Made by a program: the position numbers and the translations under genes. From IMG/VR virus record IMGVR_UViG_3300006749_000037, positions 1 through 39,061 of that record: 39,061 nucleotides of DNA; one strand, given 5' to 3'. Under the pieces are notes generated by a model. That model did not search any database. It had not been told where the DNA came from and worked only from the letters and a program-made list of their open reading frames with translations. Positions within the stretch are counted from its first letter, which is position 1. Each line of letters opens with the position of its first letter. This DNA is from a virus. Of the stretch, positions 7,316-22,591 are shown one piece after another.

Positions 7316-7731
7316 TACTTACCCGCTAGCTTTTTCCAAACACCAGTATTAATTCCTAATGCCGCCAAGTTTACACCCGGGTCATTTGGAGCTATACCAT
7401 CCAATGGTCTTGCCCCATGCGGGGTTGCTCCTGAACTTCTGCTGGCTTCTCTATTCGAGAGAGGTTGCGTTCCTTCAAAAAGATTAACGCCATTATAAGC
7501 GTCTTTGCCAATTGCATCTAGCATTCTTTTTCTATTTTCTTGCATCTCTCTTTGTTTTCTTTCGTTATCAAATGAAGGAGCAACATATTTATTGGTTTGT
7601 TCAACAATTGTATTAGATGGTTGCAAAGCTTCTTTAATTATGTTTTCGAGAAAGTTGCTTTCAATTAAAGCTTCCTCAATACATTCTTTAATAATTGGCT
7701 TGAGTGCCTTCTTTAAACCTTCTTTATTCAT
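7315..7731 (-). CDS. Small head-associated protein with tag-like N-terminal helix (138 aa)
   Basis: The gene starts directly after the prohead protease stop. The N-terminus (LKKALKPIIKECIEEAL, residues 6-22) is an amphipathic helix resembling the MKLTKETLKRIIKEEL segment of four other small proteins in the window. A second helical charged stretch follows around residues 56-72 (NERKQREMQENRKRMLDA). The C-terminal half is Gly/Pro/Asn-rich and probably flexible. In T4-type phages the gene after the protease usually encodes scaffold or another prohead-core component; this one is short for a scaffold. A core/scaffold component or an internal head protein is plausible. No enzyme motif is visible. 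Confidence 0.75.
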   Translation of the reverse strand: MNKEGLKKALKPIIKECIEEALIESNFLENIIKEALQPSNTIVEQTNKYVAPSFDNERKQREMQENRKRMLDAIGKDAYNGVNLFEGTQPLSNREASRSSGATPHGARPLDGIAPNDPGVNLAALGINTGVWKKLAGK

Positions 7732-8355
7732 TTAATCTCCAAGAATCTTTTTAAATAGTCCATCTATGTTGCTTTCTCTTTGTTCTCTTAACTTTGTAGA
7801 AAACTTGATTGCCGTCTTCTTGTCATCTTTTGGAAAGACATAAGCATTGGGGGTCGATGGTTCCGATACTATGTCAAAACAAATAAGTTGGAAATCATCT
7901 TCGACAATCGTTTCGCCCAATTGTTCCCTGACCGATCCAAGTCCTCGAGAAGAAATACCAAGCTTGACACCTGCATTAATCAGGTCTTTTAAAATTCTTC
8001 CGCTTGGAGTATCAAGTACCTTGATCTTACCCATGACATCTTTACCTTCCCACCAACAGTTTGTAACCATGTGAGAAACATTTTTAAGATTTACAACAGA
8101 GTCATCTGGGTGGTCTAATTCACCGCAGGCACGATTATCCTTTACAATAATCATGTAATTGTCTATCTCTCTTTTTAAAACTTTCATTGGGTATTTTCTA
8201 CCATTTCCGTTTTTTGTGTCTGCCGTTTGAATACGACCAGTTAGATAGATGACACCTTCTTGGACAACTTCGTTTTTTTCTGCTTCCGTTAAGAGATCAA
8301 GACAACGTCCGTCCGGACATAAAGCATGAAATTCTCTTAATAATTGTTTAGACAT
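7732..8355 (-). CDS. Prohead maturation protease, T4 gp21-like
   Basis: The 207-residue protein matches the T4 gp21-type prohead serine protease. Visible features are the GRIQTADTKNGNGRKYP region near residues 40-56, the CGELDHPDD motif with the probable catalytic His82, the LGISSRGLGS motif with the catalytic Ser at 135 or 136, and FDIVSEPS near residue 160 with a conserved Asp161. This protease assembles inside the prohead and cleaves scaffold, capsid and internal proteins, in T4 after (I/L)-x-Glu. Its position between portal-linked genes and a small helical head protein fits. A structured GC-rich leader precedes the gene at 8356-8444, and a GGAGAG ribosome site is just before the ATG. Confidence 0.92.
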   Translation of the reverse strand: MSKQLLREFHALCPDGRCLDLLTEAEKNEVVQEGVIYLTGRIQTADTKNGNGRKYPMKVLKREIDNYMIIVKDNRACGELDHPDDSVVNLKNVSHMVTNCWWEGKDVMGKIKVLDTPSGRILKDLINAGVKLGISSRGLGSVREQLGETIVEDDFQLICFDIVSEPSTPNAYVFPKDDKKTAIKFSTKLREQRESNIDGLFKKILGD

Positions 8356-9366: not shown

Positions 9367-10165
9367 TTCTCTTCACCTCCGCTAAAAGATCTTGAATGTA
9401 AAAAACTTCTTCGACCATACTTGAATCAATTGGCCTCTTAACATAACTATCTAGTTTCTCTTTGACTTTTAAAAAGTTATCTTTCATAGTAGAGTCTTTT
9501 TCTATTTCTACACTTACAGCTTCTTTTAATCTTCCGATTTCCTCATTTAAAAAACACTTGAGACCCAATCCATTATCAGAAAAGGATACTATAAAGTTAC
9601 TAAGTAAATCTTTTTGCTCCGTCAACAAAGAATGTTTGTATGTATCATTAAATCTTTCGACAAACATTTTAAATTCTAATTGACCAACTGCTTTCATTTC
9701 TGTCTGGTTTTCGTCCAATCTGGTAAGATAATTTACCACTTTGTCCTCGAGCATAATTCTTTTCTTTGCTCCAAGGTTCGAGTTTTGAAAATACAATCCA
9801 ATAGTCGCAAGATCTTTATAGTTTGGCACAAAGTTGGAAAAAGTTTTACTTCCCAACGCCTTGTTGATTTTGTTGATCAATGCTGTTTGCTCATTAAAAA
9901 TTTCTGTACGATTTAAATTATCAAAATCTTTTTTTGTTTCAACCATGAGTCTTTGTGAAAATTGTTTATTTAATTGTTTGCTCTCAATAAGAGATTTGTA
10001 CAAACCAAGCTCATTAGCAAGAACCTTTCCTTTTGTAAAAAATTCACGTAAAAGACCCTTTACTTTTGTTTGTCTTTGTTTGTCTTCTTTTAAAATTGCT
10101 TTTGTTAATTCACGAATCAGACATTCGTAAAGAAAAGCGGTATTTCTTTTCTTATTGTGTTTCAT
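9356..10165 (-). CDS. Helical head-assembly candidate downstream of portal (269 aa)
   Basis: I choose the ATG at 10165, which has AAGGA 8 nt upstream, rather than 10174, where the ribosome site would touch the start codon. The protein is lysine- and glutamate-rich and predicted almost entirely helical. It begins MKHNKKRNTAFLYECLIREL, continues with long charged helices, and ends in a possible coiled coil (ENFLKVKEKLDSYVKR-like region, about residues 230-265). It has no catalytic motif or membrane segment. It overlaps the 3' end of the portal gene by 14 nt. A prohead-core or scaffold-like role is suggested by helix content and position, but the family is not recognised. Confidence 0.75.
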   Translation of the reverse strand: MKHNKKRNTAFLYECLIRELTKAILKEDKQRQTKVKGLLREFFTKGKVLANELGLYKSLIESKQLNKQFSQRLMVETKKDFDNLNRTEIFNEQTALINKINKALGSKTFSNFVPNYKDLATIGLYFQNSNLGAKKRIMLEDKVVNYLTRLDENQTEMKAVGQLEFKMFVERFNDTYKHSLLTEQKDLLSNFIVSFSDNGLGLKCFLNEEIGRLKEAVSVEIEKDSTMKDNFLKVKEKLDSYVKRPIDSSMVEEVFYIQDLLAEVKRNGD

Positions 10166-12104
10166 CTGTGTCATCCTTTTTATTTAGTGATTCTAGTAGA
10201 GTTTTGATCTCAGCATCAATGTTAAATAGTTTCTCTTCTTCTTTGGTATCATTTTCTTGGATACCTCTGACTAGGGAATCCATTCCCCCGAAACCAACCT
10301 TACCAGGCCACGTTGTTCTAGAGGTGGAGCCTCTAACCTCACCGCTAAATGCTTGGTTCTTCATCTGTTTAGCAAAGCCACCTTTGCGGTATGTAATCTT
10401 TCGTTTTTTGTATGGCCCACGAGGTTTTGCGTCATCATCTCGCTTTGCAGGTGGTTCTGCAAGTAGATCTGCGTCCTTCTTGTCACCTCCACCAGCATCT
10501 TTGTTGGCGTCAGGTGTGTCGCCTCCAGTATCACCACCAAGATTTAAATCTCCGCCGGAGTCACCTCCAAGGTCTAAATCTCCGCCACCGGAACTTCCAC
10601 CGCCTAGATCACCTCCGCCTCCTAAGTCACCACCCGAACCACCAGCAGGGGCTTGACCTGCTGCTTCAAGTGCAGCCATAAACTTTTTATCAGTGTGCAT
10701 TTCTCTTTGCATTCTAAGGTATTCATCTTGCGACAAGCCAAGCAGATTTTCAGCAATCCAACGACGAGAGAAGAATCCTTCAGTCGCAGCACCAGCAATG
10801 TCAAATTTTGTTTTCCAGTGTTCAAGCTCTTGCATCTCTGCTATCTTAGACGGGTTGTTTAATGATAGCTTAAAGTTTAAAAGATCGTCCCCACGATAAC
10901 CTAAAGTGTAAAGGTGAATAATTCCAATCTTTTCAAGCTCCGCCAATACAACGCGTTGTAGTCTCTGGATGGTTCTTGCAAATCGAATGTCTTTTTGTGC
11001 AAGTGTTGTTTTGTCTTCTGTATTTCCACCTTCGCCCATTGAAAGGTAAGATTGCGGAACTTTCAATGCCGAGAATAGTTTGTCTCGCAGATATTTAACA
11101 TCTTCAATCTGTGCTGTGAATTGACCACCGGGAAGATTGGTAATGTCTGTGGATGATTGCCCGCCACGAATAGGGATGAAGTAATCCTCTTCAATCGACA
11201 GGGGATTGTAACGCAAGTCTACGCGTCCCGTGGTTGGATCAACAACTTGGTGACGCTTCATTTGAGTCATGACCTTTTGCATGTATTGCTCAACGTCTTG
11301 AGGTGCAATTCCACCTACGTCTATCTTAAACACACGTCGCTCTGGTGATCTTGTAATACGATAGGCCATCATTGCATCTTCGAGAAGCGTAAGTTGTCTC
11401 CAGATGCGTCTAGCAGGCTCTAAAACGGATGTTCCGTAAGGGGCATGCTTGTCATTTCCGAGAACACGAAAGTGCGCCATTTGCCAATTCTCAAGTGTCA
11501 ATCCAGCATTGTTCCACTGGAACTGAACGTAATTTGGATTTGATGGGTCTTCACCTTCAAGTCTCTCAACTTCTTGAGCTGGTAGTCCGATGCAGTTTTG
11601 CAAACCTTTTGTTTCATCTAAATCTAGATACAAAAACATGTCTCCGTATTTGCACATCGTTCTAGCCCAACCAAACAAGTTGTGTTCAATGTTCATGATG
11701 TTATAATAGAGAGAGTGTAGCACATATTTAATTTCATCATTTGGACACTTGATGTGCAAGATTGGCGTTAGTGCGGAGTGGGTTGTCATCTCGTCTGCAT
11801 AAATGTCAAGAGAAGATGCGATCTCTGGTGTAAATTCCATTTGGTCAAAGTCAACATAACGCTCCGCTCTATTTCTATTCGAGATCATGTTGAGCGTCAT
11901 GATGTTCATTGGGTTGTATTCGGTCTTCTTAAATTGTTGACCTGATGCAGACTTGAACCTTTTTGCATACATGTCCAAGTGGCGTCGTCTTAGTTGCCGT
12001 CCTGATTGAGTTCTTCTTTGTGTAATCGGACCAGAGAACAATCTAGTTAGAGTTTTAAATAAATCATTTTCATTGTTTCTTGGGTTTCTATCATTGCGAG
12101 CCAT
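10152..12104 (-). CDS. Portal protein, T4 gp20-like
   Basis: The 650-residue protein matches the T4 gp20 portal family. Recognisable stretches include the VDFDQMEFTPEIASSLDIYADE region near residues 83-104, the MAYRITRSPERRVFKIDVGG core near 245-265, the DYFIPIRGG segment, and the LPGGQFTAQIEDVKYLRDKL segment near 325-350. The portal forms the dodecameric ring at one capsid vertex through which DNA is packaged and to which the neck attaches. An unusual Gly/Asp-rich low-complexity stretch (about residues 485-545, repeats of the type GGDLGGG) is followed by a basic patch (GPYKKRK) before the C-terminal tail. The gene starts 4 nt after the terminase stop with an AAAGGA ribosome site. Confidence 0.93.
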   Translation of the reverse strand: MARNDRNPRNNENDLFKTLTRLFSGPITQRRTQSGRQLRRRHLDMYAKRFKSASGQQFKKTEYNPMNIMTLNMISNRNRAERYVDFDQMEFTPEIASSLDIYADEMTTHSALTPILHIKCPNDEIKYVLHSLYYNIMNIEHNLFGWARTMCKYGDMFLYLDLDETKGLQNCIGLPAQEVERLEGEDPSNPNYVQFQWNNAGLTLENWQMAHFRVLGNDKHAPYGTSVLEPARRIWRQLTLLEDAMMAYRITRSPERRVFKIDVGGIAPQDVEQYMQKVMTQMKRHQVVDPTTGRVDLRYNPLSIEEDYFIPIRGGQSSTDITNLPGGQFTAQIEDVKYLRDKLFSALKVPQSYLSMGEGGNTEDKTTLAQKDIRFARTIQRLQRVVLAELEKIGIIHLYTLGYRGDDLLNFKLSLNNPSKIAEMQELEHWKTKFDIAGAATEGFFSRRWIAENLLGLSQDEYLRMQREMHTDKKFMAALEAAGQAPAGGSGGDLGGGGDLGGGSSGGGDLDLGGDSGGDLNLGGDTGGDTPDANKDAGGGDKKDADLLAEPPAKRDDDAKPRGPYKKRKITYRKGGFAKQMKNQAFSGEVRGSTSRTTWPGKVGFGGMDSLVRGIQENDTKEEEKLFNIDAEIKTLLESLNKKDDTDETQ

Positions 12105-12107
12105 ATT

Positions 12108-13685
12108 TTATCCTTTGTAAATCCAGAAAAATTCTTTTGTTTTCTTTATCTCCTCTTCGTGTTTTTCTAGAAATGTTTCGTTGTAGAATTTTTGGCCTTT
12201 AATTTGTGTATTCATTGTTGTTGTGCTTTTGAATACACCACCTAACATTGCCTTCTTATATGCCATGTCTCTTTCGTTTTCTGAGAGGGCTGTGTCTCTC
12301 ACCCAACAGGCAATTGCCAAAGACATTACCAGATCATCATTATAAGAACGCATCGCTTGTGGCTTACCATTAATCCAAACAAAAGTTTTCAATTCATGAA
12401 AGACCCTAGAGGAATGCATAGTAATTAGTTTGTTTCTGACGTACTCCTCTAGTTTGGCAACAATTAAAGGTCTCGTCTTAACAGACGTTGTAAAACCAGG
12501 CACTGCTCTTTCGTCATGTTCGGCCAAGTACGACTCAACATACTCGTGAGTTGATTTAATGGAATAGTAAAGCTTTTTGTATTGCATGTCTTTTAGCTTC
12601 TCTAGAACAGCGATACCAACGCCTACATTTTCAACAACAAGAAGACATGTGCCGTACTCAGTCGCGGCGTCATAAAGTATTTTTGAATACATGTCTAGGT
12701 CGGGTTTGCCTTGATACTCGGCAACAACTGTCATGTTATCAACTCTGATTATGTGGAAACAAGAAAAGTCTGCTCCATCACCTCGAGCAACGTCAGCAGA
12801 TAAGATGTAAGGAACTCCTTCTTCAAACTTTTCCCAGATCCAAAAGTTTCTATCATAGCCCGATCTATACTCAGGATCTTTAACATCTTGTATGATTCTC
12901 TGTAAATCTTCTGGATTGATTACAGTTTCACCGGAAGCGTTGAACGAACACTCAAGCTCCTGTGCAATTTGTCTCTTGGACATGTTTCTTGTTTCTTTTT
13001 CATACCAAGTTTGATCACGTTCGGGATGAACATCCCACATTAGTTTTGTTGGGTGAAAATCATTAACTTCAGTCTCAGATTCGGTATAGGTTTTGTGGAA
13101 CCAATTTCCAACGCCGTTAGGGGTGCTTAGAGCGATACAGCGGCCCCCTGTTGACAAAGTAGGGTAAAGACCCGTCCAAAGCTCTTCGAGGCCGTCAACG
13201 AACGCTGCCTCGTCTATAATGAGCAATGATAATGCTTCCGAACGACCAGCATCTCCTGATGTCGTTCCAGCTTTTACTTGAGAACCATTTGTGAGTTCAA
13301 ATGACTGTTTGTTGTCGACTGAGATCTTTGCAATCAACATCCATGACGGAAGGTTTTTGAAGATCATCTTGACTTTCTTTACGAGGTTAGTTGCCGTACT
13401 AAGTTTGGTTGCGATTACGAGAACGTTCTTTTCTCGGTGAAACAACATGAACCAAGCAACATAAGCAGCAGAGATCGTAGAGATCCCAAGCTGCCTACCT
13501 TTTAAAATTACATTGAAACGATAATCGTTAAAATCTTTCAGTAAATCTCTCTGATAGTCATACGTCTTAAATGGAATTTGACCATGCATCGGATGAGAGA
13601 TCTTGCAATAATTGTCGATGAAGTATTCTGGACTTTTTCCACACTTTACAAGTTCTTTAACAATCTCATTCTTGGTAAGCTTCAT
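12108..13685 (-). CDS. Terminase large subunit, T4 gp17-like
   Basis: The 525-residue protein is the ATP-driven DNA packaging motor and headful nuclease. The ATPase domain carries a variant Walker A, GRQLGIST (residues 63-70), a Walker B LLIIDEA with Asp158 and Glu159, and an STPNG coupling motif at 187-191. The C-terminal RNase H-like nuclease domain shows Asp298 in ILSADVARGDG, Glu352 in LLVVENVG and Asp450/Asp451 in YNDDLVMSLA. The usual Walker A lysine is replaced by Ile69, although Lys62 directly precedes the motif. The N-terminal MKLTKNEIVKELVK faintly resembles the shared tag of neighbouring small proteins. The portal gene follows directly. A small terminase subunit is not recognised. 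Confidence 0.94.
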   Translation of the reverse strand: MKLTKNEIVKELVKCGKSPEYFIDNYCKISHPMHGQIPFKTYDYQRDLLKDFNDYRFNVILKGRQLGISTISAAYVAWFMLFHREKNVLVIATKLSTATNLVKKVKMIFKNLPSWMLIAKISVDNKQSFELTNGSQVKAGTTSGDAGRSEALSLLIIDEAAFVDGLEELWTGLYPTLSTGGRCIALSTPNGVGNWFHKTYTESETEVNDFHPTKLMWDVHPERDQTWYEKETRNMSKRQIAQELECSFNASGETVINPEDLQRIIQDVKDPEYRSGYDRNFWIWEKFEEGVPYILSADVARGDGADFSCFHIIRVDNMTVVAEYQGKPDLDMYSKILYDAATEYGTCLLVVENVGVGIAVLEKLKDMQYKKLYYSIKSTHEYVESYLAEHDERAVPGFTTSVKTRPLIVAKLEEYVRNKLITMHSSRVFHELKTFVWINGKPQAMRSYNDDLVMSLAIACWVRDTALSENERDMAYKKAMLGGVFKSTTTMNTQIKGQKFYNETFLEKHEEEIKKTKEFFWIYKG

Positions 13686-13688: not shown

Positions 13689-14051
13689 TTATCCAAAATA
13701 GACCTTCATATTTTTAACCTGCTCTAAAGTTGGTTTATCGGAACCCATTTTTCGATTTAGAACATCAAAGATAGCCTCAGCTAAACCGTTGATAGAGCCA
13801 AGTTTACCTCCGTCAGCTAAAGATTGTACAGCCTTCTGTATTTTGAAGGGATCATAATCGGGCCTCGCAAAACGATATCTAAAATCAATTTTCTTTCCAT
13901 CGTATTGTAATTCAACAGCTGTGTCTCCTTTCATCATGCTAGGATTAAAGTAGGCCATGAGTCTGCCCCCTGCTTCAGTGACAGTGTCTTCCATGACGGC
14001 ATCAAGCTCTTCTTTGATGATTTGTCTTAAAGTTTCTTTTGTAATTTTCAT
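13689..14051 (-). CDS. Small tagged protein (120 aa), MKITKETLRQIIKEEL N-terminus
   Basis: I place the start at the ATG at 14051; a longer frame to 14102 only exists because it shadows the cysteine-rich peptide gene in another frame. Residues 1-16 form the amphipathic tag shared with three other small proteins here. A short acidic linker (AVMEDTVTEAGG) follows, then a compact domain (residues 30-120) with beta segments such as MAYFNPSMMKGDT, VELQYDGKKIDFRYRF and a helical end. No enzyme motif is visible. It begins 4 nt after the peptide gene and ends just before the terminase. I infer a virion-internal protein addressed by the tag; the globular part is of unknown function. Confidence 0.75.
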   Translation of the reverse strand: MKITKETLRQIIKEELDAVMEDTVTEAGGRLMAYFNPSMMKGDTAVELQYDGKKIDFRYRFARPDYDPFKIQKAVQSLADGGKLGSINGLAEAIFDVLNRKMGSDKPTLEQVKNMKVYFG

Positions 14052-14055
14052 TGTT

Positions 14056-14127
14056 TTATTCTTCGCAGCATTCACATGTACAGCATGGGCAGCAATTGCC
14101 ACAACATTTTTCGTCTAAATTATTCAT
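14056..14127 (-). CDS. Cysteine-rich metallothionein-like micropeptide (23 aa)
   Basis: This 24-codon frame (ATG at 14127, TAA at 14056-14058) encodes 23 residues of which nine are cysteines: positions 8, 9, 12, 13, 15, 16, 18, 20 and 21. The pattern is CCxxCCxCCxCxCC, framed by an acidic start (MNNLDEK) and an acidic end (EE). The ATG overlaps the stop of the upstream gene as ATGA, GGGAG lies 10 nt upstream, and the stop lies 4 nt before the next ATG. That tight fit is the same packing as for all neighbours and argues for real translation. The cysteine density resembles metallothioneins, so binding of zinc, copper or iron is likely chemically. The biological role is unknown. Confidence 0.72.
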   Translation of the reverse strand: MNNLDEKCCGNCCPCCTCECCEE

Positions 14128-14678
14128 TTTTGGTTGTCTCCCGGTTTGATAAATTCATTTTGAGGACGCTTTGCTTTTGCTGTCTCCAAAAAATTTCTTG
14201 TAATGTCTCGGATTGTTGGCTCCGAAGGTGCACCCGTTTGCTCCATTTGCAAACCACCAATCTTGTAGTGTTGGTATGCTTGGACAAATGTACGAACTCT
14301 AGAGGTTGTTTGAACAATGATTTGAGGATCTCCTTTCGCGGTTAGAGAAACAGAGTTTCCGGTAACCACCTTATATTCTTTTTGCAAGAACTTTTTGACT
14401 TCATTCATTGTACGAAGAATTTCGTTTTCAAATCCGCTTTCTTTGAGATCTTTCATTCTGACATCAGATTGATAATTGATAATCATTGAGTCGCCATAAA
14501 ATTTTACTTTGAATCCATCGATACATCGCGTATCCAATAGGGGGATGCCCTCTTCTCTTTTCAATCCAACTTTACGTGCTTGACCGTCAAGAGAATAGTT
14601 ATCCATGTGAGCGCCATCGTAAGCGTTCGCTGCTGCTTGAGATAAACCTCTAATAATTTCTAATGTTTCTTTGCTCAT
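14124..14678 (-). CDS. Uncharacterised phage protein upstream of terminase (184 aa)
   Basis: No family is recognised. The N-terminus (MSKETLEIIRGLSQAAANAY) is helical and its SKETL-x-x-I spacing is weakly like the tag of nearby proteins. The central part (residues 45-130) looks like an alpha/beta fold with beta segments FKVKFYGDSMIINYQ, YKVVTGNSVSLTA and QIIVQTTSRVRTFVQ. The tail is polar. There is one cysteine and no membrane segment. GGAGAT lies just before the ATG and overlaps the end of the upstream gene. Position two genes before the terminase might suggest a neck or packaging accessory role, but nothing in the sequence proves this. Confidence 0.72.
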   Translation of the reverse strand: MSKETLEIIRGLSQAAANAYDGAHMDNYSLDGQARKVGLKREEGIPLLDTRCIDGFKVKFYGDSMIINYQSDVRMKDLKESGFENEILRTMNEVKKFLQKEYKVVTGNSVSLTAKGDPQIIVQTTSRVRTFVQAYQHYKIGGLQMEQTGAPSEPTIRDITRNFLETAKAKRPQNEFIKPGDNQK

Positions 14679-14688
14679 TGCCTATCTC

Positions 14689-15009
14689 CTATTGAATGGT
14701 GCTTGCATTAAGAGTATCGCCTGAGATCGTGTATTTGCCGTCTGGGGTTAGCGCAATAGTGAACGTAGCCTTTCCTGGTTCGACACCATCATACACCGTC
14801 TCTACAGAATCAAATTCGAACTCTACCGGTGAGCTCGAGCCCATCAGGCTCATAGCTTTTTCTTCGAAGCCGGCTGTTGAATAGGAATTGCGTTCAAGTT
14901 CCTTCATGGCGTCTTCGATGCCATCTTGATAATCTGCTTGTTCTTCGTGTAGCACTTTGCCCAATTCTTCTTTAATAATTCTTTTTAAAGTTTCTTTTGT
15001 AAGTTTCAT
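14689..15009 (-). CDS. Small tagged protein (106 aa), MKLTKETLKRIIKEEL N-terminus
   Basis: The likely start is the ATG at 15009, 9 nt after a GAGG site; the alternative at 15018 would touch that site and add three residues. The first 16 residues are identical to those of the next upstream gene (15015-15398), then the sequences diverge (GKVLHEEQADYQD here). The rest has an acidic helical stretch and a small beta-rich domain (EFEFDSVETVYDGVEPGKATFTIAL-like, residues 57-80) ending TISGDTLNASTIQ. No catalytic motif or membrane segment is seen. A virion-internal or prohead-core role is inferred from the shared tag and from the gp21-like protease in the same phage. Confidence 0.75.
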   Translation of the reverse strand: MKLTKETLKRIIKEELGKVLHEEQADYQDGIEDAMKELERNSYSTAGFEEKAMSLMGSSSPVEFEFDSVETVYDGVEPGKATFTIALTPDGKYTISGDTLNASTIQ

Positions 15010-15014
15010 TTGGT

Positions 15015-15398
15015 TCATCCTCTGGGTTTTACATATACTATTTTATAATCGGAAGCGTACAAGTCATATTTAACAATCGATTGAACAACATTTTCTACTA
15101 CTTTTTTTCTCATCTCAACATTCTGGACGGAACCCATCTCGCCTTTAGAATCTCTAACCATCTCGATGATTTTTGTGCGTAATGATTTAATTCTTCCGGC
15201 ACTTTCGGGATATGCCTCTACAAACTGTTCGGCGCTTCCGAATGTCTTGTCGTCATGGGAGATCTCAATCTTCGGTGGAGCACCGAATCCGAGAGGTTCG
15301 GCCTCAATTTTGAAGACAGCAGTGTTCCTGTTTTCACTTAGAGTTTCCTCTAATTCTTCTTTGATAATTCTCTTTAAAGTTTCTTTTGTAAGTTTCAT
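15015..15398 (-). CDS. Small tagged protein (127 aa), MKLTKETLKRIIKEEL N-terminus
   Basis: The start at 15398 overlaps the upstream stop as ATGA and has GGAGA 8 nt before it; an upstream extension to 15461 would run through the neighbouring gene. Residues 1-16 are the shared amphipathic tag, followed by ETLSENRNTAVF. The body mixes beta segments (FKIEAEPLGFGAPPKIEIS) and helices (EQFVEAYPESAGRIKSLRTK) and ends in a beta strand YKIVYVKPRG. No known domain is recognised. The DNA encoding its tag is nearly identical to that of the following gene, which suggests recent duplication or gene conversion of the tag. Confidence 0.75.
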   Translation of the reverse strand: MKLTKETLKRIIKEELEETLSENRNTAVFKIEAEPLGFGAPPKIEISHDDKTFGSAEQFVEAYPESAGRIKSLRTKIIEMVRDSKGEMGSVQNVEMRKKVVENVVQSIVKYDLYASDYKIVYVKPRG

Positions 15399-15766
15399 TC
15401 GTTTGGTCTCCAACCTTTTTTCCATCTTTCTTCTCGCCCTTCCACCCATTGTATGTAACACTTATAGCAGCAATCAAATTTTGTCATGTAAAGATCATCG
15501 ACGGATTTGAATGAATAAGTATTGCATGTTGGACATGAACGCTCGGATTCTCTATTAAGTAGTTCTTTTGAAATTAAAACCCCATCAAGATCTACCTTCT
15601 CGCTTTCTGTTTTGTCATGACGATAGTTTGACTTGAGTTCATCTAGGTACTCCCTCTCTTTATCATCATCCCATTTTGATTTAGGGTTGACTATAGCGTC
15701 ATGCCCGTATTTTTCAGCAATTGCTTTTTCAACCTTGACGGCATAATTTGGATCTTTATTTTTCAC
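15395..15766 (-). CDS. Zinc-ribbon-like small protein (123 aa)
   Basis: Translation probably begins at the GTG at 15766, which has GGAG 5 nt upstream. The first half is charged and helical (MKNKDPNYAVKVEKAIAEKY, KEREYLDELK). The second half carries two cysteine pairs, SCPTC near residue 80 and DCCYKC near residue 100, spaced like a zinc ribbon, followed by a tryptophan-rich basic end (WVEGREERWKKGW). Such a module could bind DNA, RNA or protein. I have a memory of similar proteins in uncultured marine phages but no known function. It lies between the membrane-protein cluster and the tagged proteins and overlaps the next gene by 4 nt. Confidence 0.75.
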   Translation of the reverse strand: MKNKDPNYAVKVEKAIAEKYGHDAIVNPKSKWDDDKEREYLDELKSNYRHDKTESEKVDLDGVLISKELLNRESERSCPTCNTYSFKSVDDLYMTKFDCCYKCYIQWVEGREERWKKGWRPNE

Positions 15767-15768
15767 TA

Positions 15769-16170
15769 TTACTCCACTATTTCATTTACGGCATAATAAG
15801 TTGCCAAAGATGTCCCCGTTCCCAGTGCAAAACCTCCAAGAAACATCCACATGGATCTTTTTGTTGAGCCTTGCTTTCTTAGTACCTCTATCTCCTCATC
15901 TCTAATTTCCATCATTTTCTCATGTTTGTATTTGAGAGAGTCGTGCTCCGAGGCTAAAACATCGTGTTTGTATTGCAGTTCAGCTACTTGAACTTTCCAT
16001 TCAAGATCTTTGCGAATCTCACACTGTTGGATTACAGCCTCAGAATCTGCGAGAATTGTTGCAACAGCCTCGTCATTAAACAAGCGACCGTCGAAAGGAG
16101 CGGTTTGTCCTTTTTCCATCCGCATCATTAATGGCTCTGCGTTAGCCAAAGACAATAGAAATAAAATCAT
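15769..16170 (-). CDS. Membrane protein with short signal-like start, coiled coil and C-terminal TM (133 aa)
   Basis: The N-terminus MILFLLSLANAEP looks like a very short cleavable signal (cut after ANA). The motif KGQTAPFDGRLFNDEA follows, a pattern I associate with small phage membrane proteins. A long charged coiled coil occupies about residues 45-100, and a hydrophobic segment (MWMFLGGFALGTGTSLATYYAV) lies near the C-terminus. The basic residues before that segment sit on the side that should be periplasmic if the signal is cleaved, so topology is uncertain. It overlaps the upstream gene as ATGA. A spanin-like or other envelope role in lysis is possible, by its place after a holin-like gene. 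Confidence 0.72.
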   Translation of the reverse strand: MILFLLSLANAEPLMMRMEKGQTAPFDGRLFNDEAVATILADSEAVIQQCEIRKDLEWKVQVAELQYKHDVLASEHDSLKYKHEKMMEIRDEEIEVLRKQGSTKRSMWMFLGGFALGTGTSLATYYAVNEIVE

Positions 16171-16520
16171 TTAAACCTCGCAATGTTATATTCTTCCATG
16201 AGTATTTTGTCCATCGCATCCGGATCTTCTTTTGCTAATTCTAATAATTCCAGTTTACGTTGAGCAGTATCTTTTTCGAGAGATGTCTCTGCACTCTTGT
16301 ATTGTTCGCGAAGCTTTGCTGTCTCTTTCAAGTATTTTTCCAAAGCTTCAGATTTTCTTTTCGCTTCACTTTCTGATGCGTGTTCGATTACTTCTATTTC
16401 TTTTTCTTTTAATTCAACTTCGTCCTTAGCGGCTTGTTTTCCTCGACGACCTAGGAAAAAAGCAAGGATGGCTACCAGTCCGGCAACCACCCATTCCCAT
16501 TTATCTTTAAGCCAATTCAT
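16167..16520 (-). CDS. N-terminally anchored coiled-coil protein, spanin-like candidate (117 aa)
   Basis: The start at 16520 is chosen because it overlaps the upstream stop as ATGA and has GGAAAGG just before it. A single membrane segment (WVVAGLVAILAFFLG, about residues 10-24) is followed by the basic RRGKQAAK and then a long Glu/Lys-rich coiled coil to residue 105. This is the general architecture of inner-membrane spanins (Rz-like), but the basic residues after the segment would favour a cytoplasmic coiled coil, which argues against a spanin. No outer-membrane lipoprotein partner is nested in it. Its cotranscription with a holin-like gene and another coiled-coil membrane protein suggests a shared membrane function. 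Confidence 0.72.
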   Translation of the reverse strand: MNWLKDKWEWVVAGLVAILAFFLGRRGKQAAKDEVELKEKEIEVIEHASESEAKRKSEALEKYLKETAKLREQYKSAETSLEKDTAQRKLELLELAKEDPDAMDKILMEEYNIARFK

Positions 16521-16822
16521 TGGCCTTTCCATACTTTAGCAAAGTCAATTGCAGTTTGGCCACCAATGTATGTCATGGCAATCATACCCCAAGTATCTGC
16601 ATCAAGACCTGTGCCCCAATACAAAAGACTAGTAGCAACGGCAAATACAAGTAGCTTGCGAGAAATAACCTTTTCCTGAACTGCATCGAACACTCCTTTG
16701 TCTTTTCTGTTTAAGTAGAGCGCAGCTTGGATATCATCTTTTCTTTCGTCAAGAGTTTCTTTAATTTTTTCTTTGCAATCGATAGCTGCGAGTTTCTCAG
16801 CCAATTCTTCTTTTAGTCCCAT
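16517..16822 (-). CDS. Holin-like small membrane protein (101 aa)
   Basis: The first half is a charged amphipathic helical region (MGLKEELAEKLAAIDCKEK, then DERKDDIQAALYLNRKDK). Two hydrophobic segments follow, LLVFAVATSLLYWGTGL (about residues 56-72) and WGMIAMTYIGGQTAIDFAKV (about 78-97), joined by a short loop. A hairpin of two membrane helices with a short turn fits small phage holins and holin-like proteins. GGAGG lies 6 nt before the ATG and a TGCTATACT promoter box lies about 30 nt upstream. No endolysin is visible in the window, so lysis function is inferred. It could instead be a phage membrane protein of other use. Confidence 0.7.
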   Translation of the reverse strand: MGLKEELAEKLAAIDCKEKIKETLDERKDDIQAALYLNRKDKGVFDAVQEKVISRKLLVFAVATSLLYWGTGLDADTWGMIAMTYIGGQTAIDFAKVWKGQ

Positions 16823-16849
16823 AATAGACCTCCTTTTACGGAACTAAAT

Positions 16850-16858
16850 AGTATAGCA
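16850..16858 (-). promoter_or_regulatory. Extended -10 box TGCTATACT before the holin-like gene
   Basis: On the minus strand TGCTATACT gives a -10 hexamer TATACT at 16850-16855 preceded by TGC. No convincing -35 is present. The TGC is also the last part of the perfect inverted repeat at 16856-16876, so promoter opening and the hairpin/palindrome may interfere. It would drive the three small membrane protein genes. Confidence 0.45.
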
Positions 16859-16876
16859 GGTCACAATTTGACCTGC
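16856..16876 (-). repeat. Perfect 8-bp inverted repeat at the end of the Mre11-Rad50 gene
   Basis: GCAGGTCA at 16856-16863 is exactly complementary to TGACCTGC at 16869-16876 with a 5-nt loop. The repeat includes the last codons and the stop of the fusion gene and touches the TATACT box. There is no T-run after it, so a simple intrinsic terminator is unlikely. It could stabilise the 3' end of the mRNA or serve as an operator. Confidence 0.55.
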
Positions 16877-19800
16877 GCATAACCATCAACTTTGTCAATT
16901 TCAATAGTTGTATCAACAACATCTTTGAGATTCTCGAGATGAGTAATGAGAAGAACTGTGCCGAAATGTGCTTTAATCATTTGTAAAAGTCTAACGAAGC
17001 CTTCCATGTGTTCAGCGTCTAGTGCGGTTGCTGGTTCATCTAGGATAAAAAAGTCCGACTGCGGTAGTGAAGATACAGAGATTAGAGCGAGTCTAATAGC
17101 CATTGAAGCAATTGTCTTCTCAGCACCCGAACCCATAGACAAAGGTCGCGGGTCATACTTTGGATGCTTTAAATAGATCTCGAGACTATTGCCATCATTA
17201 TCTATCAATACTTCAAAGTCAACAATGGTTGAAAGTATAGAAGAAATCTCAGCATTGATGCGAGACAACATAGACTTGATAACCTCGTATGAGATTCCAT
17301 TAGCGTGTGTTGCTTGTACAAACAAGTCGTATGCAATGTAATCTCTTTCGGCATCTTTAATTTTTTGTATACCTTCTCTCGCCTCTTCGATTAATCTTTT
17401 TGTTGATCCTTTCTCTGACATAAGTTCAAGCAAGTCGGATTTGCATTTTTTAAAAGACATGTCTCTAGCGGCGATGGTTTGATCAATTGCGGACATGTCT
17501 CTACGTAGAGAAGAGAGATTTTCATAAGCTTCAATGTTATCGTTGTAGTAAGCAATGTCAGATTCGTAATCTTGTATACGTCGCTGCACCAAAGATACTT
17601 TGCCCTCGCAGTTCTCCCATTGTAGAGACAGATTGAGAACCTCAGATTTGTTTCTCTCTAGAGCATCTCGTTGGACTTCATAGTCTCTGACAACTGCCTG
17701 CGAATAAACTTCGTTGGTCAATGATGCTTTCATTTTCAAATCAAGCATGACTGAGTTAAGGCGTTCTATGTCTTGTTCTACGTCGACAATCGTGACCTTT
17801 GCTTCTTCCGCTTTCTTTACGAACTCATTGTTGCTACAGAATTTACAATCAGGGTCATACTCATGATCATGAAGCATGTCGATCTTTGATTGAAGTCTAG
17901 ACTTCTCTCGCTTTGCTTTGTCGACAGACTTTTGAGTTTCTTTCATTTTTGACTTGATGATTTCCAAAGTATCAAGTTCTTCTTGAGCAGTGGTTGAGTC
18001 TTCAATCAAAGATGGCAATCTAGACGTCAAATCTTCGATTCTAGATCGTTTTGATTTGATCTCGGTAGATAGCCTATCCATTTCTTTGGAATTGCTTGAA
18101 AGCGATTTTTGAGCCTTTGAGAGCCTAGAGTTGACATCATCAATGTTTATTTCTCTCTGGGAGGCTGCTTCAACCTGCGATTGAATCAGATCTCTTTCGC
18201 CTCTTAAGATGCGTAAGCGTTGTTCAGATTTGTCACACTCTTCTTGTTTGGTTTGTATTTCTTCTAGGATCTCAGAATATTCATCGATTGCTCTCTTGAG
18301 TTTCTTCTCCCAATCCACACCATTCAAGTGTTTAATGTAGCCCCGCATCTCTGAAGAATCTTTCTTGACCTCTTTATGCATTTCATCAAAGATTTCCAGA
18401 TCAAGAAACTTTGCAAGAATCTCTTTACGCTTAGTCGATCCTTCGTTGATAAACCCAAAAGAATCATTCTGTGTAGACAATGATGTCATTATAAAATCAC
18501 GATAGGTTCCGAAAGTTGATTGAATGTTTTGATCAGTCTCGTTTCTGGTCGTACCGTTCTTTGATTCTGCATTTGTTCCCAAGTTCATCTTGGTAAAATC
18601 CAAGTCGGTCTTAGCAGATGTTTTTGTTCTCTCGAGGTTTCTCGAGATCTTATAAAGATCATCGCCAATTGAAAGTTCGATTCTACACTTTGCCTTTTCG
18701 TGATTCTGGTTTATAATGTGGACATTCTTTCTTTCTCCTTTGGATGTGGTATTAAACATTCCAAATAAAGCAGCATCAATGATGGACGACTTACCAGAGT
18801 AATTTTTGCCGAAGATACCAACAAGACCATTTAATTTACTAAAATCAATAGAGTTGCCTTTGCCATAGTTAAACAAGTGATCCCATTGCATTTTGATCAG
18901 TTTCCATGTTACGTTTCTGGACATGTCTGACTGAGTATGCTTCTTAAAATACTCTCTAGCAATTTCCATTGCTCTTTCTCTCGTTTCTGGTTTTAATTCT
19001 TTCGTGTCTAAAAACTGCTCCATGTATTTGTCAAATACATTTTGATCTCGAACATTTTCTGATTTTGATACATTGTTATCCATGGATGCTTGGGTTGCAC
19101 GATTGACAGTTTGGATGGACATGGGCGACCATTTAGTTTGTGCATAATCTTCTATGCGAATTAGTCGCGCACGAGGTATGTTGTGATCACAAACCAATCT
19201 TAGTCTAGAGTTCTTAGGAACACTTACATTGGGTAGTTGCCCATCTTTAGTTATCGATACAGTCACAAATGGCCTTGGTGATCTAAACAATCTTTTTTCA
19301 ACATTGTGTTTTTGTTTAGAATGAATGTTCCACATCAAGTACCCCTTGAGTTGTGACTCTCCAAAATTTTGCTGAACAGTTGAACCGGCATACCAGAACT
19401 TTTTCTCCAAGTCTAAGTATTGAGTTCTGTGGATGTCTCCAAGCATGGCATAATCAAAATCTTTGAAGATTGAAAGATTATCTTCACCATGATCCAAAGA
19501 AAATCCAGATCCCACTTGTGATCCTTGGACGGCACCGTGATACAAAGCAATGTTGATACTCCTGTTGTTCGAAGGAGATCTCCAATTATCACGATCAAAA
19601 ACAGACAAGACATTAAAAGTAAGTCCATCTTCCGGAGTATACTCTCCGGAGTTTTTCAATAATTTAAGATTGGGATGACCAAGCGCTTCAATAATTGGTG
19701 TGATAGCATCTTGGCGGTCTCCGTTCTTAAGATTGCCATCATGGTTGCCAAGTATTATGATGGTGGGCGCTATGTCTGCCAAAGATTTAAGAAAGTCAGA

Positions 19801-19983
19801 TGCCATCTCAAAATATTCTGGTGATAATTGTGTCTTAGTGTGCGCTAGGTCACCGGTGTGTACGATGTAATCTGGGCTCTCCTGCTTTAGGGAGTCGTAG
19901 ATTTCTTTAAATACATGTTTGTATTCCTGATGATATTTCAAATTTCTAATATGAGTATCACTAATGTGTGCAATACGTTTCAT
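16861..19983 (-). CDS. Single-chain Mre11-Rad50 (SbcD-SbcC) fusion nuclease/ATPase
   Basis: This 1040-residue protein joins two normally separate subunits. Residues 1-240 are an Mre11/SbcD metallophosphoesterase with Asp9 and His11 (SDTH), Asp45 (GDLAH), Asn80-His81-Asp82 (GNHD), His149 (YHG) and His185 (GDIH). A linker (about 240-375) with a helical part near 315-350 leads to a Rad50/SbcC ATPase: Walker A FGKNYSGKSS at 391-400, coiled coil, zinc hook Cys713-x-x-Cys716, return coiled coil, signature LSMGSGAEK at 948-956, Walker B FFILDEP with Asp982 and Glu983, and an H-loop His1015. All key residues are present, so it should process DNA ends. In T4 the equivalents gp47 and gp46 are separate. 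GGAGG precedes the ATG and a consensus promoter drives it. Confidence 0.94.
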   Translation of the reverse strand: MKRIAHISDTHIRNLKYHQEYKHVFKEIYDSLKQESPDYIVHTGDLAHTKTQLSPEYFEMASDFLKSLADIAPTIIILGNHDGNLKNGDRQDAITPIIEALGHPNLKLLKNSGEYTPEDGLTFNVLSVFDRDNWRSPSNNRSINIALYHGAVQGSQVGSGFSLDHGEDNLSIFKDFDYAMLGDIHRTQYLDLEKKFWYAGSTVQQNFGESQLKGYLMWNIHSKQKHNVEKRLFRSPRPFVTVSITKDGQLPNVSVPKNSRLRLVCDHNIPRARLIRIEDYAQTKWSPMSIQTVNRATQASMDNNVSKSENVRDQNVFDKYMEQFLDTKELKPETRERAMEIAREYFKKHTQSDMSRNVTWKLIKMQWDHLFNYGKGNSIDFSKLNGLVGIFGKNYSGKSSIIDAALFGMFNTTSKGERKNVHIINQNHEKAKCRIELSIGDDLYKISRNLERTKTSAKTDLDFTKMNLGTNAESKNGTTRNETDQNIQSTFGTYRDFIMTSLSTQNDSFGFINEGSTKRKEILAKFLDLEIFDEMHKEVKKDSSEMRGYIKHLNGVDWEKKLKRAIDEYSEILEEIQTKQEECDKSEQRLRILRGERDLIQSQVEAASQREINIDDVNSRLSKAQKSLSSNSKEMDRLSTEIKSKRSRIEDLTSRLPSLIEDSTTAQEELDTLEIIKSKMKETQKSVDKAKREKSRLQSKIDMLHDHEYDPDCKFCSNNEFVKKAEEAKVTIVDVEQDIERLNSVMLDLKMKASLTNEVYSQAVVRDYEVQRDALERNKSEVLNLSLQWENCEGKVSLVQRRIQDYESDIAYYNDNIEAYENLSSLRRDMSAIDQTIAARDMSFKKCKSDLLELMSEKGSTKRLIEEAREGIQKIKDAERDYIAYDLFVQATHANGISYEVIKSMLSRINAEISSILSTIVDFEVLIDNDGNSLEIYLKHPKYDPRPLSMGSGAEKTIASMAIRLALISVSSLPQSDFFILDEPATALDAEHMEGFVRLLQMIKAHFGTVLLITHLENLKDVVDTTIEIDKVDGYAQVKL

Positions 19984-20011
19984 TTGTCCTCCAATTTTAG
20001 AATGTAATCTT

Positions 20012-20040
20012 ATTATAACATATTATTTGTCTATTGTCAA
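20012..20040 (-). promoter_or_regulatory. Consensus sigma70-type promoter for the Mre11-Rad50 gene
   Basis: The minus strand has TTGACA at 20035-20040, exactly 17 nt of spacer, and TATAAT at 20012-20017 with a TG extension (TGTTATAAT). This is a perfect match to the bacterial housekeeping consensus at both boxes. It overlaps the 3' end of the preceding 96-aa gene and lies about 30 nt before the ATG at 19983. Confidence 0.85.
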
Positions 20041-20313
20041 GTATTTTTCTTCAAATTCATCATAGAAGATTGGTCCGCCGTCCATAAAAGTTAAGTCAAA
20101 AACGTTGTAATCAAACCACTCGAGTGATTGTACCGGTCCCCAACCATAAGCCTCCGACAAGCATGACAATAGAATGTCAACTTTGTAAACTAATCTAGAT
20201 TCTTTTCTGTGAAATTCCATTATGGCAGGAGCAAAAATTTCTCGCGGCTCTAATACCAAAAACGAATGGCCATCATCCACAGCATCTTTTATTATTGTCT
20301 CAGCAAAACTCAT
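20023..20313 (-). CDS. Small acidic protein of unknown function (96 aa)
   Basis: Two ATG codons are adjacent; GGAGG at 20318-20322 is only 1 nt from the first and 4 nt from the second, so I favour 20313. The product is acidic and aromatic, with a helical N-terminal part (MSFAETIIKDAVDDGHS), a central KVDILLSCLSEAYGWG stretch, and a Phe/Tyr/Asp-rich C-terminus (FDYNVFDLTFMDGGPIFYDE). No known domain or membrane segment is seen. It has its own strong promoter of the same family as the DNA-metabolism genes. A small acidic protein made early could inhibit a host factor, but this is a guess from class, not from sequence. Confidence 0.7.
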   Translation of the reverse strand: MSFAETIIKDAVDDGHSFLVLEPREIFAPAIMEFHRKESRLVYKVDILLSCLSEAYGWGPVQSLEWFDYNVFDLTFMDGGPIFYDEFEEKYLTIDK

Positions 20314-20334
20314 CATACCTCCATTGCTACTTAT

Positions 20335-20363
20335 AATGTAACATGTTCAGAGATGTTTGTCAA
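20335..20363 (-). promoter_or_regulatory. Sigma70-type promoter before the 96-aa gene
   Basis: TTGACA at 20358-20363, a 17-nt spacer, and TACATT at 20335-20340 with a TG extension (TGTTACATT). The 35 nt at 20331-20365 are identical, but for one base, to 23140-23174 before the nucleotidyltransferase gene. An 8-bp palindrome AACATGTT lies between the boxes, next to the -10. Confidence 0.8.
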
Positions 20364-20367
20364 GTTT

Positions 20368-21276
20368 TTATTCGATGTGACCCGTGCCTACTACTGACCA
20401 CTCTAGTTGAACATCCACATAGCCATTCATTCCCTCGAACGGAACACGTTGCTTGGAGATTCTTGTTAAATAAATTGCAGTCAAAGACCATGCTGGATAG
20501 GATTGAAAATAGCTTCCATCAAAAAACATAAACCCACTATCTGGGCCTGTACAGGAAATTGCACCCAACAGTTGCGAACCATCTGGTGAATAAGTCACAA
20601 TCATGATATTGAATTCATCTGATACACCTGGTGGTGTCCACGAAAAATTAGTACCAGATTTAGATACAACTGCTGCAAAGGCATACGAAGGATCAACGTA
20701 CCTCAGTTCCCAAGGTTGAATTTCATCAAAACCTTGAATAGAGCGAAACGAGTAGTAAGTGTTATCTTGCAAACGAACGGTCATCAGTGTGTTCCGATCG
20801 TACTGCGATTCTTGTAAGTAGCTCGAGTACAGCCCCACGCCATTATCATAGGCGGAGAATGAATTAGTCGATCCTTGTATGCTTAATGTTTGACCTACAT
20901 TAATTGGTGAAACATTAATCCCTAGTGGATTCGTGTTTGTTGAGCATTGTCCCATTGGAGGAAACCAAAGAGGGTGCTCATCATTAATCTTGTCGTGGAA
21001 TTTTGACTCAAACAAAACAGTGATTTCTTGAGACGTGCCCATACATGCAGGACAAGCAAGTTGCTCAAGAGTGTATCTTGTAAGCCCAACAGTGCCCTCT
21101 AGAGGCTCTGTAGATGGTTCGGTAGCAGGTTCTCCTGCTGGTTCGTTTGCAGGTTCATAAGAGGGCTCAGTGGTGGCTGTATCAATGACCTGCTCTGCTG
21201 TTTCTGTTGTTTGAATTTTATCAACAGTTCTGATTCCAATGTCTCCCCCACATGTGAGAAGAAGCGCTAAAAGCAT
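20368..21276 (-). CDS. Predicted lipoprotein with Glu-Pro repeats (302 aa)
   Basis: The N-terminus MLLALLLTCGGD is a very short hydrophobic segment ending in a lipobox-like LLTC, so Cys9 may be lipidated. Residues about 30-60 are a repeat of the type EPANEPAGEPATEPSTEP, probably an extended spacer. The body carries CPACMGTSQE and further cysteines, plus beta-rich segments. Near the C-terminus there are aromatic beta strands (GFMFFDGSYFQSYPAW). Such a surface-anchored lipoprotein may act in superinfection exclusion or receptor masking; this is inference. GGAG lies 5 nt before the ATG. The threonine before the cysteine is not the favoured lipobox residue, so lipidation is likely rather than certain. 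Confidence 0.75.
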   Translation of the reverse strand: MLLALLLTCGGDIGIRTVDKIQTTETAEQVIDTATTEPSYEPANEPAGEPATEPSTEPLEGTVGLTRYTLEQLACPACMGTSQEITVLFESKFHDKINDEHPLWFPPMGQCSTNTNPLGINVSPINVGQTLSIQGSTNSFSAYDNGVGLYSSYLQESQYDRNTLMTVRLQDNTYYSFRSIQGFDEIQPWELRYVDPSYAFAAVVSKSGTNFSWTPPGVSDEFNIMIVTYSPDGSQLLGAISCTGPDSGFMFFDGSYFQSYPAWSLTAIYLTRISKQRVPFEGMNGYVDVQLEWSVVGTGHIE

Positions 21277-21315
21277 AAAAACTCCACTATTATTAAAGTA
21301 ATTAGTAGGTTTTAG

Positions 21316-22251
21316 TTAAATGTTCTCTAGCATTTGTTCGAAAAAATACATTTCGCTCTTTATCTGTTTGGAACCTAGTAGTCTGTCTTTAAATTCTTCT
21401 ACTCCCATTTCTGATACGTCTTCTTCGTCAATAGGGACCTTGAACACTTCAAGATCATACTTCAACATAGACTTAATGATCCACTCGGCTTTCTTCTCGG
21501 CATCATAGTCCAAAGCCATGTAGACCGGGGTGTCGTGAATAGCGATGGCTTGAAACAAGCGAGACTGCTCTCTCAGGGTCGAACCAAGAATTGGGATTGC
21601 ATTGCCTCCTGCTGCGATAGCATCAAAGACACCTTCGACAAGAACAACGGGCTCGTCCCAGTCGATCATCAGTTCGTTAAAAACGATGTCACGGTCTGCT
21701 GGAGGGTTGAGGTACCTATAAGAATGCCCAACGTAACTGCGAGCAATGAAGTAATTGCAATCTCCATCCACGTCAAACGACGGTATAATAATTCTTCCTG
21801 CATAGCGGCCCTCCTTACAATAGCCAATCTTCCATTTTAATATTTCTCTCCGACCAATACCTCGAGATGATAGATAACGGAACACGTCCGTCGTCTCCAT
21901 CGGCAAGTCTTTATTGCACAACGAGATAAATTCTTCGGGCAAATCTATTTGCTGCTTTTCTTCTTCGTTGTTAAGTTCCCTAAATAGATCCTCGAATTCG
22001 TTGAGATCAAGTCTGCCTTGAAGCTCAAGATACTTTTGCCGTTGCTGGTATGTGCCAAACTTTCTTACAATTCGGTAAATGTTCTTGCCTCTTGCATCAC
22101 AAATCCAGCATTTCCAGAAGCCGTTTGCGAAGTTCACCGACATTTTCTTTTTGTGGTGATTGCAATAAGGGCAATGATACAAATGTTCATCACCCTTTTG
22201 ATAATAAGACCCAAGAACTTGGGTTACAATTTTTCTTTTGTCCTCGATCAT
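21316..22251 (-). CDS. DnaG-type DNA primase (zinc finger plus Toprim, 311 aa)
   Basis: The start is the ATG at 22251, with AGGAGG 5 nt upstream; an upstream GTG at 22278 falls inside the promoter. The N-terminus has a CHC2-like zinc-binding module with Cys27, Cys30, Cys48 and Cys51 (CPYC, FWKCWIC). The Toprim core shows LVEGVFDAI with Glu206 and YMALDYDAEKK with Asp248 and Asp250. Length and layout fit the small T4 gp61-type primases, which make RNA primers for lagging-strand synthesis together with a helicase. No helicase domain is attached and none is found in the window. It has its own sigma70-type promoter with a very short leader. Confidence 0.9.
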   Translation of the reverse strand: MIEDKRKIVTQVLGSYYQKGDEHLYHCPYCNHHKKKMSVNFANGFWKCWICDARGKNIYRIVRKFGTYQQRQKYLELQGRLDLNEFEDLFRELNNEEEKQQIDLPEEFISLCNKDLPMETTDVFRYLSSRGIGRREILKWKIGYCKEGRYAGRIIIPSFDVDGDCNYFIARSYVGHSYRYLNPPADRDIVFNELMIDWDEPVVLVEGVFDAIAAGGNAIPILGSTLREQSRLFQAIAIHDTPVYMALDYDAEKKAEWIIKSMLKYDLEVFKVPIDEEDVSEMGVEEFKDRLLGSKQIKSEMYFFEQMLENI

Positions 22252-22268
22252 AATGTCCTCCTGTTTAT

Positions 22269-22297
22269 AATGTAACACATCACAGAAGGCTTGTCAA
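22269..22297 (-). promoter_or_regulatory. Sigma70-type promoter before the primase gene
   Basis: TTGACA at 22292-22297, a 17-nt spacer and TACATT at 22269-22274 with a TG extension. The expected transcript start falls at about 22262, directly at the ribosome site, so the leader would be only about 12 nt. The -35 and -10 boxes match the other promoters of this family but the spacer differs. Confidence 0.8.
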
Positions 22298-22306
22298 GTA
22301 AAAAGT

Positions 22307-22591
22307 TTACTTTGTGCCTGCCTCATCTTCAATGTCAACGCCGTCAAGCGTTATTCTGACGTCTTTGTTAGGATACTCGCTTCGGATCATTGAGAGAATA
22401 GATTGAAGTTTTTCATCTTGACTAATTTCTTTTGGAGGATAGTCGGGGTTTGGACCACCAGTGCCTGTGTTAACTGGTCTCTTTGATGGGTCGGATCTAT
22501 AGCCTTTTCGAAAAGGGGCGTCACCTTCTTCAAGGGCAGCTTCCAGTTCTTCTTTGATAATTGTTTTCAATGCTTCTTTTGATAGTTTCAT
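22307..22591 (-). CDS. Small tagged protein (94 aa), MKLSKEALKTIIKEEL N-terminus
   Basis: The start at 22591 has GGAGA 7 nt upstream; longer frames run through the preceding gene. The first 16 residues are the shared amphipathic tag, followed by EAALEEGDAP. A basic, Pro/Gly-rich linker (FRKGYRSDPSKRPVNTG) leads to a small C-terminal unit (QSILSMIRSEYPNKDVRITL) of helix then strand. There are no known motifs. Unlike the other tagged proteins it lies among DNA-metabolism genes, directly after the nucleotidyltransferase, and shares that gene's promoter. I infer that it too is targeted by its tag, probably to the prohead. Confidence 0.75.
   Translation of the reverse strand: MKLSKEALKTIIKEELEAALEEGDAPFRKGYRSDPSKRPVNTGTGGPNPDYPPKEISQDEKLQSILSMIRSEYPNKDVRITLDGVDIEDEAGTK

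Follow-up and report, generated by a model that had tools for sequence, protein, structure and literature searches.

A shared N-terminal segment on small phage proteins as a candidate capsid-targeting propeptide

Four open reading frames (T1-T4) on the minus strand of a virus record, IMGVR_UViG_3300006749_000037, carry the same N-terminal segment, referred to below as the tag. The record is a fragment, and its 39,061 bases are the stretch analysed here (the window). Why should small proteins that otherwise differ begin in the same way? An initial annotation of this DNA, which had noticed the nearly identical N-termini, proposed that they target the proteins to the capsid and are then removed by a gp21-like protease. 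All four tags were found where it had placed them (Table 1). For some of the four genes the mechanical reading frame begins farther upstream at a GTG or ATG, and the methionine of the tag was taken as the sensible start.

The four tagged proteins and the neighbouring head genes

Table 1. Tagged genes and neighbouring genes of the window
Feature	Coordinates	Strand	Length	Description
Tagged protein T1	14051..13689	-	120 aa	N-terminus MKITKETLRQIIKEELDAVMED; tag, residues 1-22, 13986-14051; sole protease-motif match inside tag, I-K-E14
Untagged gene	14678..14124			between T1 and T2
Tagged protein T2	15009..14689	-	106 aa	N-terminus MKLTKETLKRIIKEELGKVLHE; tag 14944-15009; predicted cut after L-H-E22
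Tagged protein T3	15398..15015	-	127 aa	N-terminus MKLTKETLKRIIKEELEETLSE; tag 15333-15398; predicted cut after L-S-E22 (L-E-E18 also present)
Tagged protein T4	22591..22307	-	94 aa	N-terminus MKLSKEALKTIIKEELEAALEE; tag 22526-22591; predicted cut after L-E-E22
Terminase large subunit	13685..12108	-		phrog_2, E=6e-55; directly downstream of T1
T4-type portal (gp20 family)	12104..10152	-		PF07230, E=9e-80; marks the head module
Conserved set of small head genes		-		between portal and S77 protease
Prohead protease	8355..7732	-		Peptidase_S77 / phage T4 gp21 family; candidate processing enzyme
Conserved small protein	7731..7315	-	138 aa	directly after protease; N-terminus ALKPIIKECIEEALIE
Ribosomal-protein-S21 homologue	7315..7112	-

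A degenerate DNA pattern of the tag gave three matches in the window and none in 100 dinucleotide shuffles; only three of the four tags match because Ser4 of tagged protein T4 falls outside the pattern. DNA identity among the four genes is 75-94% in the tag and about 30% beyond it. Past residue 24 no convincing similarity between the encoded proteins was detected, the best pair being T3 and tagged protein T4 (E=0.008 over 30 aa). Family searches against Pfam and PHROG returned no significant domain match for any of the four. The tag had been described as an amphipathic helix of 16 residues. A helix is plausible, as AlphaFold models of T1 and T3, run as single chains without alignment (mean pLDDT 53 and 49), place it with low confidence at residues 5-21/23. 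However, the hydrophobic moment of the tag did not significantly exceed that of shuffled versions (p 0.13-0.28). The length needs correction as well, since the shared segment comprises about 22 residues, and residue 22 is where the conserved block of relatives stops.

The genes of T1, T2 and T3 sit directly upstream of the terminase gene, and that of tagged protein T4 lies farther off. The gp21-like protease that had been reported at 7732-8355 was confirmed, with a match to PF03420 of E=2e-32 (112.7 bits, cut-off 27) and to phrog_207, head maturation protease, of E=1.8e-58. Among annotated phages the best protease match was that of Microcystis phage Mel-JY01 (49% identity), in which the gene order is that of the window: terminase, portal, small genes, protease, small protein, S21.

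Occurrence of the tag and its association with T4-type heads

When IMG/VR was scanned with a degenerate pattern of the tag (consensus MKITKsQLKqIIKEELeevL.E, also written MKITKxQLKQIIKEELexvLxE), it was detected on viral contigs in at least 120 stretches, while the same pattern with its residue order reversed gave no match. Among the matches listed, 234 tagged proteins were usable, and clustering left 204 distinct bodies; the median length was 108 aa, and the genes often stood several in a row. The tag is a real observation, and a far larger one than had been stated at first. In 257 Gb of prokaryote genomes the pattern occurred in three stretches only. One of these belongs to a Methylococcaceae MAG, in which a slightly wider pattern detected 21 tags, all on one strand of a single contig, where a stretch of 9 kb contains 18 of them. 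The only S77 protease of this MAG is encoded on the same contig, which we infer to be a phage that was binned with it.

Apart from a near-identical contig, the relatives of T1 obtained by tblastn matched it mainly through residues 1-25, i.e. the tag. Searched by tblastn against annotated phage records, the tag itself matched one uncultured 484-kb record only. A relaxed pattern was present once in that record, and the isolates Mel-JY01, immuto and Syn1 gave no match to it, so that no cultured carrier was found among the annotated records and these isolates. A search of the open-access literature for the motif returned unrelated human and plant peptides only, and open-access work on capsid targeting in marine phages contained no description of it.

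Head genes were surveyed in 33 tagged contigs with a length of 45 kb or more and in 32 random contigs. The S77 protease was encoded in 21 of the 33 versus 4 of the 32 (Fisher p=3e-5), and 24 of the tagged contigs had a T4-type portal over the cut-off. Three contigs have the portal without the protease; here the portal lies 0.2-2.3 kb from a contig end, which would explain the absence of the protease. The remaining nine, in which no T4 portal over the cut-off, S77 protease, HK97-type portal or window-like terminase was detected, look like fragments. All head modules visible in tagged contigs were of the T4 type. In the converse test the tag was present in 6 of 18 long contigs selected for their protease versus none of the 32 random contigs. 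Tagged genes near the protease share its strand (20/20), and some adjoin it or sit in the head cassette. Some of the T4-type phages thus have the tag and others do not, and its association with the protease could partly reflect shared ancestry.

Sequence signs of probable proteolytic processing and of a proposed link with the prohead core

Phage T4 gp21 cuts after L/I-X-E, and the propeptides of the phage T4 internal proteins (IPs) are 10-19 residues long (PMC9026906). Residues 17-24 of the tag had been left out of the search pattern. Among the matches listed, conservation across the 204 distinct bodies falls to background past residue 22, and 120 of them have [LIM]xE starting at residues 17-22, compared with 63.5+-4.7 when the columns were shuffled independently (z=12). 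No excess was observed in these bodies, relative to column shuffles, at spacings 1, 3 and 4 or for Asp replacing Glu. The result was replicated in loci chosen for their protease, where 9 of 11 further bodies have the motif (4.8 expected). From protein to protein the position of (L/I/M)xE shifts register, which is the behaviour of a protease site and not of mere helix periodicity. In about a third of the tags, residues 16-24 contain no [LIM]xE. In the window LxE at residues 20-22 is present in T2, T3 and tagged protein T4 and absent in T1.

The cut had originally been placed after I-K-E. As I-K-E at residues 12-14 was demanded by the search pattern, its frequency in the set reflects selection; it is also kept in the conserved small protein beside the protease and is the only candidate site in T1. 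It may be a second site, but LxE at residues 20-22 is the better-supported predicted cut. In phage T4 the gp23 protein loses 65 residues at processing (PMC9026906). Homologues of gp23 from 17 tagged contigs were compared, and every one retains LL.E, or an equivalent I-x-E, near residue 60, which is consistent with the same protease specificity in the tagged phages.

The bodies behind the tag are poor in the same motif. With the expectation computed from the composition of each protein itself, the observed/expected ratio of [LI]xE was 0.87 in tagged bodies, compared with 1.25 in untagged proteins encoded in these loci and 1.19 in proteins of random contigs; tagged bodies relative to their untagged neighbours gave a ratio of 0.70 (95% bootstrap 0.61-0.79). 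LxD, LxK and LxQ were not depleted in tagged bodies (1.12-1.20), and other spacings gave no such difference between tagged bodies and comparison proteins. As a positive control, phage T4 IPI, IPII and IPIII each contain exactly one [LI]xE, which lies inside the propeptide. In our judgement no other line of evidence is as strong as this avoidance in indicating that tagged proteins would meet, and have to survive, a protease specific for (L/I)xE.

The small protein encoded at 7315-7731 resembles the tag at its own N-terminus. Its homologues (n=82) were selected by the C-terminal half alone; all 82 share the N-terminal helix, and 80 of them have [LIM]xE there. Their N-termini read M.K.ELKK.LKPLIKECIKEVIFEEG, and an alignment by eye sets the tag LKQIIKEELEEVLNE against the core LKPLIKECIKEVIFE. 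The tag HMM scored these N-termini above those of other ORFs in their loci (Mann-Whitney p of about 3e-35, for homologues that are not independent). Over the N-termini of the window this protein ranks fifth, after the four tagged genes, with E=0.011; the next is the terminase (0.064). The product of 7315-7731 is a candidate component of the prohead core, of which phage T4 gp67 and gp68 would be the obvious functional analogues. A role as scaffold or gp22 counterpart was rejected, as relatives have a separate gene of 370-410 aa just before gp23.

A second tag, M(K)LLxENWRx(F/Y)LxE (in short MKLLxENWRxYLxE), stands on other bodies in the same phages. It was found in 34 of 120 tagged loci, among the matches listed, versus none of 120 random loci; the window has none. 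Although the proteins were selected without requiring the final Glu, a Glu at L+2 was present in 91% of 119 distinct second-tag bodies, and conservation fades within two residues past it. These bodies also avoid [LI]xE (ratio 0.79, 0.71-0.88). They match guanylate kinase, zeta-toxin, GNAT, protein-kinase, 2H-phosphoesterase and ART-PolyVal families, some below the curated cut-off, while bodies of the first class mostly belong to no recognisable family, with one GNAT protein over the cut-off. In total 239 distinct bodies of the first class and 198 of the second were collected. We give an even chance to the broader idea that in uncultured T4-like phages two or more interchangeable tags constitute a general export code, in which any gene that acquires a tag would have its product become head cargo. 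A single phage might then deliver some 20 different small effectors, perhaps for anti-defence or takeover, along with its DNA, and these could be listed by reading the tags.

A proposed role of the tag and its relation to known systems

Computation directly shows the tag, the unrelated bodies that carry it, the motif at the tag end, the scarcity of that motif in the bodies and the association with T4-type heads. Taken with the likeness to the core protein, the end motif, the avoidance and the T4-type head and S77 link support the initial proposal of capsid targeting followed by gp21-like removal. We consider it highly probable that the shared N-terminus is an undescribed class of capsid-targeting propeptide, which docks, is cut at about residue 22 and leaves the body to be delivered with the DNA. 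Each small protein would be docked into the prohead core by its tag, and the simplest mechanism is probably mimicry, the tag copying the N-terminal docking helix of the conserved protein 7315-7731. During head maturation the S77 protease would cut after (L/I)-x-E at the tag end, around residue 22, and might also cut after I-K-E14. The tag peptide would then leave, and the mature body, poor in (L/I)xE, would remain with the DNA and be delivered at infection. Packaging, cleavage and injection as physical events are inferred here from sequence. The suggestion that the tagged proteins have an anti-defence role is a guess by analogy with phage T4 IPI, which is injected and inhibits a restriction enzyme (PMC3012670).

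The likeness of the tag to the N-terminus of the small protein beside the protease, and the position of some tagged genes inside the head cassette, would also suit assembly proteins of the prohead core that are consumed at maturation and are not delivered. Consumed proteins should be rich in cleavage sites, whereas the tagged bodies are poor in them. Moreover, there are more than 200 unrelated bodies, one phage-like contig has as many as 21 tags, and the enzyme domains in some relatives (GNAT, guanylate kinase, zeta toxin, ART) fit cargo better, so that we regard consumption in the core as unlikely. A helix that is short and rich in Lys and Glu could instead direct the proteins to a target unrelated to the head, such as the host membrane, a host protease or polymerase, or tail assembly, and host targets are bound by many early phage proteins. 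Yet all visible head modules in tagged contigs are T4-type, and the tag ends in the motif of the S77 protease, a motif that the bodies avoid and a protease that in phage T4 acts in the prohead (PMC9026906). A target of this kind therefore seems to us very improbable.

The tag could also be an element at the DNA or RNA level, a translation-start enhancer or a recombination cassette, with the protein sequence being incidental. The tag DNA of T2 and T3 is 94% identical, and codon usage at the beginning leans somewhat towards A and shows less variety than in the bodies. The synonymous codons vary widely, however (six for Leu8, four for Thr4), while the amino acids are near invariant, and a register-shifting LxE together with LxE avoidance in the bodies is sensible at the protein level only. 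The DNA-level explanation was rejected on this codon variety, and its probability appears to us close to negligible.

To our knowledge, it is hard to learn which proteins are injected with phage DNA, and measurements exist for very few phages. Should the tag prove to be a packaging address, the injected proteins of many uncultured, largely environmental phages could be listed from sequence alone, and which proteins phages inject would become a directly testable question. Several hundred candidates are in hand, nearly all without known function and some with kinase, acetyltransferase, ADP-ribosyltransferase-like or zeta-toxin-like domains. The tags might also be used to fill phage heads with proteins of choice, a use to which the phage T4 sequence has already been put.

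The closest parallel is the capsid-targeting sequence (CTS) of phage T4 IPI, IPII, IPIII and Alt. Like the tag it is a short N-terminal propeptide common to otherwise different small proteins, and it ends in (L/I)-x-E, the site of the S77 protease gp21. The mature bodies are likewise poor in (L/I)xE, which is lacking altogether in the IPs, and both arrangements suit a packaged set that changes fast between phages (PMC9026906, PMC3012670). The two differ in sequence: the tag HMM gives the N-termini of IPI, IPII and IPIII -1.3 to -2.8 bits, and homology to the IP propeptide was rejected on these scores below zero. By analogy, the tag would function like the IP propeptide though it is not its homologue. 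Unlike the IP propeptides of 10-19 residues it is 22 residues long; it resembles the N-terminus of a core protein, and its cargo set is far larger and more varied. The second tag has only the F-(I/L)-x-E end in common with phage T4. A similar case is that of the giant phage SPN3US, in which gp53 and gp54 share an identical N-terminal stretch of 15 residues with motifs for cutting after Glu, and propeptides are removed by a distant gp21 homologue (PMC5694885). The giant-phage propeptides (SPN3US gp53/gp54, phiKZ gp93) differ from the tag in their motifs, A-x-E or S-x-E, and in that several exceed 100 residues (PMC5694885). Finally, the SPN3US stretch stands on two diverged paralogues (PMC5694885), whereas the tag stands on hundreds of unrelated bodies.

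Tagged genes and a second tag outside the window

The tag, an N-terminal sequence proposed to be a capsid-targeting propeptide, was found as the variant MKITKRQLRRIIREA in a contig of a Methylococcaceae MAG (G068:C5, about 305 kb), where 18 tagged genes were packed in 9 kb (G068:C5:184219-193192, locus L298) and 21 were present in total. An S77 (T4 gp21-family) prohead protease is also encoded on this contig, which is probably a large phage that was binned with the bacterium. Other bodies start with a second N-terminal tag, MKLLxENWRxYLxE (loci L400-L510, L009, L015, L044, L296 and others); some of these were recognisable, including guanylate kinase, zeta toxin, GNAT and ART-like bodies.

Neighbours of the tagged genes and of the protease

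Features of the window, all on the (-) strand
Position	Feature	Remarks
7112-7315	homologue of ribosomal protein S21	PF01165, E=2e-10; inside head cassette
8445-8819	membrane-like protein	adjoins protease; CPLCMGFWVG motif
14056-14127	tiny ORF, 23-aa peptide	between T1 and 14124-14678
14124-14678	untagged protein	between the tagged small proteins T1 and T2
16861-19983	single 1040-aa ORF	metallophosphoesterase and SMC/AAA ATPase joined

No family match was obtained for the untagged protein, whose N-terminus, MSKETLEIIRGL, looks in its sequence like a worn tag (cf. TKETLKRIIKEEL). The 23-aa peptide, MNNLDEKCCGNCCPCCTCECCEE, contains nine cysteines.

The membrane-like protein, which matched DUF1360 weakly and under the cut-off (E=0.0047), is kept at the same position in most related head cassettes. 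The position of the S21 gene is the same in Microcystis phage Mel-JY01 and several related loci.

Fused gp47-gp46 type protein

In the 1040-aa ORF the metallophosphoesterase comprises residues 3-186 and the SMC/AAA ATPase about 372-1032. The product is a fusion of the T4 gp47-gp46 (Mre11-Rad50) type.
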